Shown here: piece after piece, positions 51,745 through 54,753 of the stretch
Layout: each line of letters starts with the position of its first letter
Numbering within the stretch: the stretch's first letter is position 1
NCBI RefSeq assembly: GCF_003594885.1
Contig: NZ_QZEZ01000001.1
Location: forward strand, 744,001 to 808,000
Direction: 5' to 3'
From: Vallicoccus soli
GTDB lineage: Bacteria; Actinomycetota; Actinomycetes; Motilibacterales; Motilibacteraceae
Length of the DNA stretch: 64,000 nt
Made by a program: the position numbers and the translations under genes
The notes under the pieces: model-generated
Seen by the model: the letters and a program-made list of their open reading frames with translations, nothing else
The model's database searches: none
Told to the model about the DNA's origin: nothing

Positions 51745-52782
51745 GTGAGCAGCAGCCGCCCGGCGGAGCCCCGCGTCGCCGGGCGCACGGCGCACCTGCG
51801 GCTCGCCGACCCCGAGGGCCGCTGGCGGTCGGTGCGCCTCTGGCAGGAGGTCGGCCTGCCCGGGAGCCGGCTCGACCTGGCCCCGGCCGACGGCGGGTGG
51901 GAGCTCGCCCTCGACCTGCCCGCGGACGTCGACCGGGTCGAGTACCTCTTCGTCGCCACCGGCCCCGACGGCGGGACCGAGCACCTGCTCGACCCCGCGA
52001 ACCCGCGTCGCGTCGGCGGCGCCTTCGGCGACCACTCCGTCCTCGAGCTGCCCGGGTACGCGCCCCCGCCCTGGCTCGGCGTCGACGCGCCGGAGGGGAC
52101 CCGCGAGCCCCTCGCCGCCGGGGGCGTCGACGGGCAGCTGTGGGCGTCGGCCGGGCTCGCGGGGGACGCCCCCGCCCCGCTGGTCGTCGCCCACGACGGG
52201 CCCGAGTACGACGACCTCGCCGCCCTCACCCGCTGCCTCGCCGGGCTCGGGCGCCCGGTGCGCGCCGCGCTGCTCGCCCCCGGCCCGCGCGACGAGCGCT
52301 ACTCGGCCGACCCCGCCTACGCCGACCTGCTCGCCGGGGAGGTGCTGCCGGCGCTGCGCGCGCGGGTGCCCGTGACGGGGGTGCTCGGCCTCGGGGCGAG
52401 CCTCGGCGGCCTCGCCTGGCTGCACGCCCAGCGCCGCCACCCCGGCGTCGCCGACGCGCTGCTGCTGCAGTCCGCGACGTTCTTCCACCGGCGCCTGGAC
52501 CCCCAGGAGGCGGGCTTCGCGCGCTTCGGGCGCATCGCGCGCTTCGTCGAGGAGGTGCTCGCCGCGCGCACGGCCCCCCGCCCGGTGCCGACGGTCCTCA
52601 CCTGCGGGCGCCGGGAGGAGAACCTCGCCAACAACCGCGCGGTCGCGCAGGCGCTGGCCCGCCAGGGGTACGGCGCCCGGCTCGTCGAGGTCGCCGACGT
52701 GCACAACTACACCGCCTGGCGCGACGCGCTGCAGCCGCACCTGGGCGCGCTGGTGGCCCGGGTGGCGAGGGCCGCCCCGTGA
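51745..52782 (+). CDS. Enterochelin-esterase-like hydrolase (Fes/IroE type)
   Basis: A 345-residue protein. The N-terminal 110 residues form an all-beta domain like the Fes/CBM48 N-domain (HLRLADPEGRWRSVRLWQEV, LLDPANPRRV). The hydrolase domain has HDGPEYDD, the nucleophile elbow LGASLGG (near 218) and a late histidine in DVHNYTAW (near 327). Fes-like enzymes cut ester-linked siderophores, but others act on different esters. It is first in an operon with a second esterase and an ATP-grasp protein. Confidence 0.82.
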   Translation: MSSSRPAEPRVAGRTAHLRLADPEGRWRSVRLWQEVGLPGSRLDLAPADGGWELALDLPADVDRVEYLFVATGPDGGTEHLLDPANPRRVGGAFGDHSVLELPGYAPPPWLGVDAPEGTREPLAAGGVDGQLWASAGLAGDAPAPLVVAHDGPEYDDLAALTRCLAGLGRPVRAALLAPGPRDERYSADPAYADLLAGEVLPALRARVPVTGVLGLGASLGGLAWLHAQRRHPGVADALLLQSATFFHRRLDPQEAGFARFGRIARFVEEVLAARTAPRPVPTVLTCGRREENLANNRAVAQALARQGYGARLVEVADVHNYTAWRDALQPHLGALVARVARAAP

Positions 52783-53483
52783 GCGGGGAGGTGCGCGCGT
52801 ACGGCCACTGGGGCCGCCCCGTGCTCGCCTTCCCCGCCGAGGACGGGCGCGCGGGGGACTGGGAGGCGCACGGCCTCGTCGACGCCGTGCGCCCGCTGCT
52901 CGACGCGGGCCGCTGCAAGCTCTACTGCGTCGACAGCGACGACGGCGCGTCCTGGTCCGACCGCTCGGTGCCCACGGAGGAGCGGGCGCGCCGGCACGAC
53001 GGCTACGAGGGCTGGCTGCTCGGGCACGTGCTCCCCGGCATCGACGCCGACTGCGGCGGGCCGCAGGAGGTCGTGGCGGTCGGGGTCAGCCTCGGCGCCT
53101 TCCACGCGGTCAACCTCGCCCTGCGCCACGCCGACCGGGTGCCGCTGGCGATCGGCCTGTCCGGCAACTACGAGCCGTCGACGTGGCACGGCTGGGGCGA
53201 GCGCGGGTTCGCCGCGTTCGTGCACGACCCCTCGGCGTACGTCCCCCAGCTGCACGGGGACCACCTGCGGTGGCTGCAGGAGCGCCTGTCGGTGCTCCTC
53301 GTCGTGGGCGAGGGCGCGTTCGAGGTGCACCCGACCCGGGCCCTGCCCTCGACCCGGCACCTCGCGCACCTGCTCGCCGACAGGGGGATCCGCTGCGAGC
53401 TCGACGTCTGGGGCCCCGACACCCCGCACGACTGGCCCTCGTGGGCGCGCCAGCTGGCCCACCACCTGCCCCGCTTCTGCTGA
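52779..53483 (+). CDS. Esterase-family alpha/beta hydrolase (EstA/antigen 85-like fold)
   Basis: A 234-residue hydrolase. The serine elbow is GVSLGAFHAVNLA (near 106), and PHDWPSW supplies the catalytic histidine near the end. There is no signal peptide, unlike mycolyltransferases, so it is cytoplasmic. The GTG start overlaps the upstream esterase stop by four bases, and an ATP-grasp ligase starts 20 bases downstream. The substrate is unknown; the tight linkage suggests all three act on one product. Confidence 0.83.
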   Translation: MSGEVRAYGHWGRPVLAFPAEDGRAGDWEAHGLVDAVRPLLDAGRCKLYCVDSDDGASWSDRSVPTEERARRHDGYEGWLLGHVLPGIDADCGGPQEVVAVGVSLGAFHAVNLALRHADRVPLAIGLSGNYEPSTWHGWGERGFAAFVHDPSAYVPQLHGDHLRWLQERLSVLLVVGEGAFEVHPTRALPSTRHLAHLLADRGIRCELDVWGPDTPHDWPSWARQLAHHLPRFC

Positions 53484-53502
53484 CGGGGCTAGGGTGCGGC
53501 GG

Positions 53503-54753
53503 GTGAGCGACGTCACGCACCTCGTGGGCCTGCTGCTCGGCACCGAGGACGACTGGCCCACCGCCTTCGAGGCGCTCGTGCGCCGGCTCGGGACGGTGGC
53601 GGACGGCTCGGGCGGGCAGCACGCGTACGCGACCGAGCGGGTCACCATCGAGCCCTTCTCGCTGCGCCAGGGCGCCCGGCACGACCTCGTGATCGACCGG
53701 CTGGCCTACTGGTACTTCGTGCCGCGGGAGTGGCTGAAGAAGGTCGCCCTCATGGACGACGTCTACCTGCTCAACAGCCCGTTCACCTTCCAGGCCATGG
53801 AGAAGCACGCGGCGTACTGCGCCATGATGCGGCTCGGGCTCAAGGTGCCGGAGACGGTCCTGGTGCCGTACAAGAACCCGGTCGACCACCAGAAGTACGT
53901 CTACACGGCGGCGCGCTACAACCGCCCCTTCGACCTCGAGGCCGTGGCCGACGGGCTGGGCTACCCGCTGTTCATGAAGCCGTACGACGGCGGAGCCTGG
54001 CGCGGGGTGTCGATGGTCCGCGACCGCGACGACCTGCACCGGGCGTACGACGAGTCCGGCGAGATGCTCATGCACCTGCAGCAGGCGGTCACCGGCTACG
54101 ACGTCTTCGCCCGGTCGCTGTCCATCGGCGCGGAGACGACGGTCATGAAGTTCGACCCGGACCAGCCGATGCACGCGCGCTACTCGGTGGACCACGCTTT
54201 CCTCGAGGCCGGCACCGGCGACGAGGTGGTGACCATCGGCCGTACGGTGAACGCCTTCTTCCGCTGGGAGTTCAACTCCTGCGAGACGCTGGTGCGCGGC
54301 CGCGACGTGCACCCCATCGACTACGCGAACGCCTGCCCCGACGTCGCCATCACCTCGCTGCACTACTACTTCCCGTGGGCGATGCGGGCCCTGCTCAAGT
54401 GGTCGGTCTACTGCACGGTCACCGGCAGGCGCCCCGCCCTGCACGTGGACACGGCGCCGTGGTTCGCCGTCGCCGACCGCGACGACCTGTCGTACGAGGA
54501 GAAGCTGCGGGAGTACCGCGCCCTCGCCGACGCCCACTTCGAGGTCGAGCGCTACCAGGACTTCTGCGACAGCCGGCTGCGGCACGTCGACGCGATGGTG
54601 CTCGAGTACGTCGAGTCCGCCGACTTCGACGCCCTGCTCGTCGACACCGTGCGCTCCACCTTCCCCGCGCACGAGCACGACCACTTCGTCGCGCACTACC
54701 GCGGGCTGCTCGGGCAGTGGGCCCACGACGAGCGGGCCCGGCTGTCGGCCTGA
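53503..54753 (+). CDS. ATP-grasp family ligase-like protein
   Basis: A 416-residue soluble protein. The ATP-grasp phosphate-loop region reads PLFMKPYDGGAWRGVS (155-170), and downstream segments with FDPDQPMHARYS and TVNAFFRWEFNSCETL fit the second ATP-binding lobe; the family usually joins a carboxylate to an amine or thiol with ATP. The N-terminal 100 residues are a distinct domain. Length and sequence differ from known glutamate, D-Ala or carbamoyl ligases. Third gene of the two-esterase operon. Substrates unknown. Confidence 0.75.
   Translation: MSDVTHLVGLLLGTEDDWPTAFEALVRRLGTVADGSGGQHAYATERVTIEPFSLRQGARHDLVIDRLAYWYFVPREWLKKVALMDDVYLLNSPFTFQAMEKHAAYCAMMRLGLKVPETVLVPYKNPVDHQKYVYTAARYNRPFDLEAVADGLGYPLFMKPYDGGAWRGVSMVRDRDDLHRAYDESGEMLMHLQQAVTGYDVFARSLSIGAETTVMKFDPDQPMHARYSVDHAFLEAGTGDEVVTIGRTVNAFFRWEFNSCETLVRGRDVHPIDYANACPDVAITSLHYYFPWAMRALLKWSVYCTVTGRRPALHVDTAPWFAVADRDDLSYEEKLREYRALADAHFEVERYQDFCDSRLRHVDAMVLEYVESADFDALLVDTVRSTFPAHEHDHFVAHYRGLLGQWAHDERARLSA

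Follow-up and report, generated by a model that had tools for sequence, protein, structure and literature searches.

A recurrent actinobacterial operon of two esterases and an ATP-grasp ligase

RimK, LysX, ArgX and the D-Ala-D-Ala ligases are the described enzymes that the ligase of the locus presented here (AG) resembles, with an ATP-grasp core that aligns at Z 16-19, a Lys assigned by eye to the KP motif and a conserved Arg204. AG differs from them in its low sequence identity (about 10-16%), a DxxN motif rather than ExN and a helical C-terminal extension of ~107 residues. The first of two accompanying esterases (E1) resembles Fes and IroD (PF00756 with Enterochelin_N) in that both domains are homologous and the Ser and His are kept, but it scores far below the equivalog, is tied to an ATP-grasp ligase and comes from a genome without a catecholate NRPS. 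CE1 feruloyl and acetyl esterases with a CBM48 act on polysaccharide esters, whereas E1 and the second esterase (E2) sit with a ligase. The neighbourhoods of ATP-grasp/GCS2 amidoligases surveyed by Iyer et al. 2009 reportedly link ligases and hydrolases in one operon. The present locus is like these neighbourhoods in that respect, and a shorter AG paralogue (AGc) sits with a circularly permuted (CP) ATP-grasp protein and a GCS2 protein. Literature searches that did not cover the Iyer et al. 2009 survey found no description of the trio.

The window, a 64,000-nucleotide stretch of the Vallicoccus soli genome, encodes E1, E2 and AG in a tight operon on the plus strand (Table 1). The gene calls agree with the original prediction of two esterase genes overlapping by four bases and an ATP-grasp gene close behind, with 19 bases between the end of E2 and the start of AG. 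An alternative GTG start of AG lies at 53494, and the family alignment favours 53503. Conservation at the protein level across many genera, from 77% down to 29% identity and with invariant catalytic residues, excludes chance open reading frames in high-GC DNA. The trio is flanked in the window by genes for a protease, a DUF2236-like protein, an alpha/beta hydrolase and a DEAD helicase (names assigned by eye), which give no functional hint. PADLOC returned no anti-phage defence match.

Table 1 Features of the esterase and ATP-grasp locus, in positions of the window.
Feature	Positions	Strand	Remarks
E1, Fes-like serine esterase, two domains, 345 aa	51745-52782	+	GTG start, TGA stop
E1 domains: E-set type N-terminal domain and PF00756 hydrolase	51745-52782	+	
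E1 nucleophile Ser219 codon, GASLG	52399-52401	+	invariant column; role inferred from PF00756 family
GTGA, E2 start overlapping E1 stop by 4 bases	52779-52782	+	sequence
E2, PF00756 esterase, single domain, 234 aa	52779-53483	+	GTG start, TGA stop
AG, ATP-grasp ligase, 416 aa	53503-54753	+	GTG start, TGA stop
AG residues 1-308, RimK-like ATP-grasp core	53503-54426	+	model match to 5zk6
AG Lys159	53977-53979	+	invariant
AG Arg204	54112-54114	+	invariant
AG Glu261	54283-54285	+	invariant
AG Asp273	54319-54321	+	invariant
AG Asn276	54328-54330	+	invariant
AG residues 309-416, helical C-terminal extension	54427-54750	+	outside RimK matches

Both esterases belong to the PF00756 serine esterases (23.4 bits for E1 and 41.9 bits for E2, cut-off 22) and keep the nucleophile Ser of the GxSxG motif and the catalytic His. 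Ser219 and His320 of E1 are invariant in an alignment of 94 relatives. Ser104, Glu182 and His217 of E2 are 99-100% conserved among 102 relatives and probably form its catalytic triad. In a profile comparison, E1 is homologous to the enterochelin esterase Fes over its full length (positions 10-341 against 2b20, E 2.4e-30), but it fails the NCBIfam equivalog for Fes with 33.6 bits against a cut-off of 222. The CE1 feruloyl/acetyl esterases with CBM48 (7b5v, 6ne9, 6rzo) are the next-best solved relatives of E1 and the best of E2. By eye, neither protein has an obvious secretion signal.

AG falls below every Pfam and NCBIfam cut-off and has only sub-threshold ATP-grasp matches. It fails the RimK family TIGR00768 (16.3 bits, cut-off 143.4; 30.4 bits for its relative L111), the D-Ala-D-Ala ligase family PF07478 (15.9 bits, cut-off 24) and the NCBIfam D-Ala-D-Ala ligase models (about 20 bits, cut-offs 243-262). 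Some relatives match PF07478 better than the window AG (best E 1.4e-5), and the AG sequence profile finds D-Ala-D-Ala ligases first. AG belongs to an ATP-grasp family that has no curated model of its own, and it could be placed in no known pathway, in keeping with the suggestion that the system may be undescribed.

The AlphaFold model of AG, built from a 79-sequence alignment (pLDDT 81, pTM 0.85), clearly predicts an ATP-grasp fold of the RimK / D-Ala-D-Ala-ligase type. The best match is RimK (5zk6, Z 19.3, rmsd 3.0 over 261 residues, model residues 6-306), followed by synapsin, ArgX/LysX, ITPK1, PurK and D-Ala-D-Ala ligases, a ranking in which rows within about 1 Z count as tied. The active sites of E1, E2 and AG alike consist of nearly invariant residues. 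Across its clades AG keeps, among others, K79, K101, K159, R204, R226, E261, D273, N276 and D280 without variation. Among the putative ATP- and metal-binding residues, assigned by eye, Lys159, Glu261, Asp273 and Asn276 are invariant; the metal motif reads DxxN where ExN is usual, which counts against the mechanism proposed below. Arg204 fits, as matched by eye, an arginine by which Burroughs et al. (PMC4431377) recognise ATP-grasp ligases of the peptide type. The C-terminal extension has conserved residues (P388, E391, H398, G401, W406) and is mostly missing from AGc.

A scan of a GTDB-based collection for AG relatives yielded 258 stretches, and the best 80 were kept as loci. Among these best 80 of 258, E1-E2-AG is contiguous in 30, E1-AG occurs in 28, E2-AG in three and AG with a distant E2 behind it in one, while AG stands alone in 14, for example in Nonomuraea. 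Four of the 80 loci are cut off; 46 of the 76 with enough flank lack one or both of the adjacent upstream esterases beside AG. A fixed sample of 296 evenly drawn Actinomycetota genomes (AG threshold E below 1e-30) contains AG in 24 genomes, E2 in 23 and both in 21, a co-occurrence with a Fisher p of about 7e-27 when relatedness is ignored. A divergent AG clade of about 44% identity, with the gene order E1-AG-E2, comes from a different taxonomic order, where 19 of 119 genomes encode it, one copy being a fragment. In each of the 18 full loci E2 comes immediately after AG; E1 lies in front of AG in 16 and within about 4 kb in the remaining two. Linkage that is kept in a different gene order argues for selection on the linkage itself. 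The trio thus recurs, by its contiguous loci, the AG/E2 co-occurrence and the divergent clade, where its absence from other genomes had been named as the finding that would speak against the original prediction. The proposed arrangement as a unit stands as recurrent linkage, but not as an obligatory trio, given the 46 loci without the full upstream pair. Distance-matrix correlations between the proteins were set aside because they are confounded by species history.

The AG loci in named relatives are actinobacterial save for two MAG contigs, one labelled Spirochaetaceae (L014) and one Acidobacteria (L076), that carry typical actinobacterial AG loci. These are probably misbinned actinobacterial DNA, so we claim no spread beyond Actinomycetota. 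A search of plasmids for AG gave no match. Two AG frames contain one in-frame stop each, TAG in L098 (G001:C11) and TGA in L119 (G310:C94), and are broken genes or sequencing errors.

AG also occurs without local esterases. Three Nonomuraea genomes encode AG and lack E2, and since AG stands there without E1 or E2, the esterases are dispensable to it in Nonomuraea. Some Actinoplanes relatives carry E2 elsewhere in the genome and others lack it. Several genomes whose AG has no local esterases encode a second cassette, AT_C-S51-E1c-E2d, with a cyanophycinase-like S51 peptidase and with homologues of the trio esterases (E1c, E2d) located beside other ATP-grasp ligases. Often found beside this cassette are AT_A and AT_B, ATP-grasp proteins that resemble carbamoyl-phosphate synthase and D-Ala ligase. 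Of the seven genomes that encode AT_A, five also encode AG (p 4e-5, relatedness ignored), and AT_A is absent from the window genome. The additional ATP-grasp ligases AT_A, AT_B and AT_C, the S51 peptidase, E1c and E2d occur together with AG in L160, L166 and L189. The large cassettes at L160:4406-14001 and L189:5020-15669 encode four ATP-grasp proteins, an S51 peptidase and two esterases. One of these cassettes also has an ABC-2 exporter, and both have the look of a cluster, so far undescribed, for a peptide or conjugate. AGc lies in an operon with E2c, a circularly permuted ATP-grasp protein and a GCS2 ligase. The AGc-CP ATP-grasp-GCS2 operon is seen at L107:6501-10591, with E2c in front, and at L108:5845-9208.

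Neighbouring genes in relatives include several tied to polymers. E2 is followed by the glycogen synthase GlgA in two relatives of one family (L111, L133). Three loci (L147, L148, L140) have an amylosucrase-like GH13 enzyme behind E2, and that of L140 matches amylosucrase at E 7e-146. Alpha-1,4-glucan is the product of both GlgA and amylosucrase, two unrelated proteins, and their presence in the same place suggests a common theme. GlgB and pgm (the latter named by eye) are encoded near AG in Intrasporangiaceae (Knoellia, Pedococcus, Segeticoccus) and in L165. These links to glucan genes come from about three independent lineages and may in part be due to chance. At L140:2687-10298, the genes E1-AG-E2-PgsB-PgsC-amylosucrase all run in the same direction, so that poly-gamma-glutamate synthase genes are joined to the trio operon. 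In five loci of a single family a DrrAB-like ABC pair immediately precedes E1-E2-AG, and such a pair also adjoins AG in L160. At L150:7427-8368 lies the gene of a CHAD-like protein (identified by eye), which overlaps the end of AG by four bases. Carbohydrate and peptide genes are absent around the window trio and most other loci.

Two neighbours were rejected as partners. Although 16 loci have the GCS2 gene F10 next to AG, this gene is a general one in actinobacteria, found in 47 of the 296 genomes; in the window genome it is on a contig other than that of the trio. DUF2252 adjoins AG only in Nonomuraea and is near it in Thermoactinospora.

We tentatively propose, at somewhat short of an even chance, that E1, E2 and AG act in the cytoplasm as a single functional unit by which a group is attached to and removed from a carbohydrate or poly-amino-acid product. 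AG would bind ATP, turn a carboxylate into an acyl-phosphate and join this to an acceptor amine or hydroxyl, as RimK, LysX and the D-Ala-D-Ala ligases do. E1 and E2, as serine hydrolases of the enterochelin-esterase superfamily, would then act on the ester or amide bond so formed, by cleavage or transfer, and the Fes/CBM48-like N-terminal domain of E1 may serve to bind the acceptor. An acyl or aminoacyl group would most likely be put on a product of the carbohydrate or poly-amino-acid type and be taken off it again (or trimmed). What the data show are the operon and its recurrence, the folds and the conservation of catalytic residues; the bond type, the acceptor and the action of all three enzymes on one product we infer. 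That the ligase and the hydrolases share one molecule, as originally suggested, is reasonable in view of the co-occurrence, the overlapping genes and the gene-order shuffling with linkage kept. On the further suggestion that this molecule is small or a modified peptide, the neighbours in relatives (glycogen synthase, amylosucrase, PgsBC) hint at polymers or carbohydrate no less strongly. Glucan, poly-amino acid and small peptide are all candidate substrates. The specific version in which AG adds an acyl or aminoacyl group to a storage or surface alpha-glucan (or poly-amino acid) of actinobacteria, and the two esterases reversibly remove or transfer it, is doubtful in our view.

A pathway for a peptide metabolite is possible, if on the unlikely side. 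Here AG would be one of several ATP-grasp ligases making a small peptide or amino-acid conjugate, E1 and E2 would release, cyclise or detoxify it, and the ABC-2 exporter would secrete it in some lineages. The combined cassettes of L160, L166 and L189, the AT_A genomes that also carry AG, the DrrAB-like pair and the AGc operon with its CP ATP-grasp and GCS2 ligases are consistent with such a pathway, but the window genome has neither AT_A nor an NRPS condensation domain, and most trio loci lack a further ligase or exporter. The full-length homology to Fes could instead make E1 a ferric-siderophore esterase and AG an enzyme that builds or tailors the siderophore. An IucA/IucC NIS siderophore synthetase is indeed encoded in the genome (G000 contig C1:740862-741617, minus strand, 271 bits), about 2.4 kb outside the window on its left side and about 54 kb upstream of the trio. 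For siderophore genes, the original remark that they are missing thus applies to the neighbourhood only. The whole genome gave no match to NRPS condensation domains (PF00668) and lacks a catecholate NRPS pathway. As a rule, IucA/IucC siderophores contain amide linkages and not a trilactone. With E1 far under the Fes cut-off and no siderophore gene recurring next to the trio in the loci examined, siderophore hydrolysis is improbable.

The structural matches of AG raise two further readings. ITPK1 and PPIP5K2 align with the model at Z 16-17, as would suit a kinase acting on a sugar or inositol with chemically unrelated esterases. RimK aligns better, however, LysX and ArgX align equally well, D-Ala-D-Ala ligases come first in the sequence profile, and the amide-ligase Arg is conserved, which makes a kinase very improbable. 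Macrocyclases of the MdnC and CdnC type are among the Foldseek matches, and AG could accordingly be imagined to cyclise a short ribosomal precursor into a graspetide. There is nearly no space for a precursor between the trio genes, and the flanks of 30 trio loci, taken out to 600 bp, hold no short sequence that is conserved family-wide; those found are common only to close relatives, and the widest, with five partners, is the downstream GCS2 gene. We consider a graspetide extremely improbable.

The attachment and removal of a group by one set of enzymes remains our preferred reading. The recurrence, across many actinobacteria, of a ligase-hydrolase operon built around an ATP-grasp family without its own curated model suggests a make-and-break chemistry, so far undescribed, that acts on a small molecule or polymer. 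AG is encoded in about 8% of the sampled Actinomycetota genomes and is tied to two esterases, indicating a metabolic function overlooked by annotation. Should the glucan link be true, bacterial alpha-glucan would be enzymatically modified in a new way; should the peptide link be true, the operon would stand for a compact conjugate pathway of a non-NRPS kind. E1, E2 and AG are three small soluble enzymes, so either link is testable.
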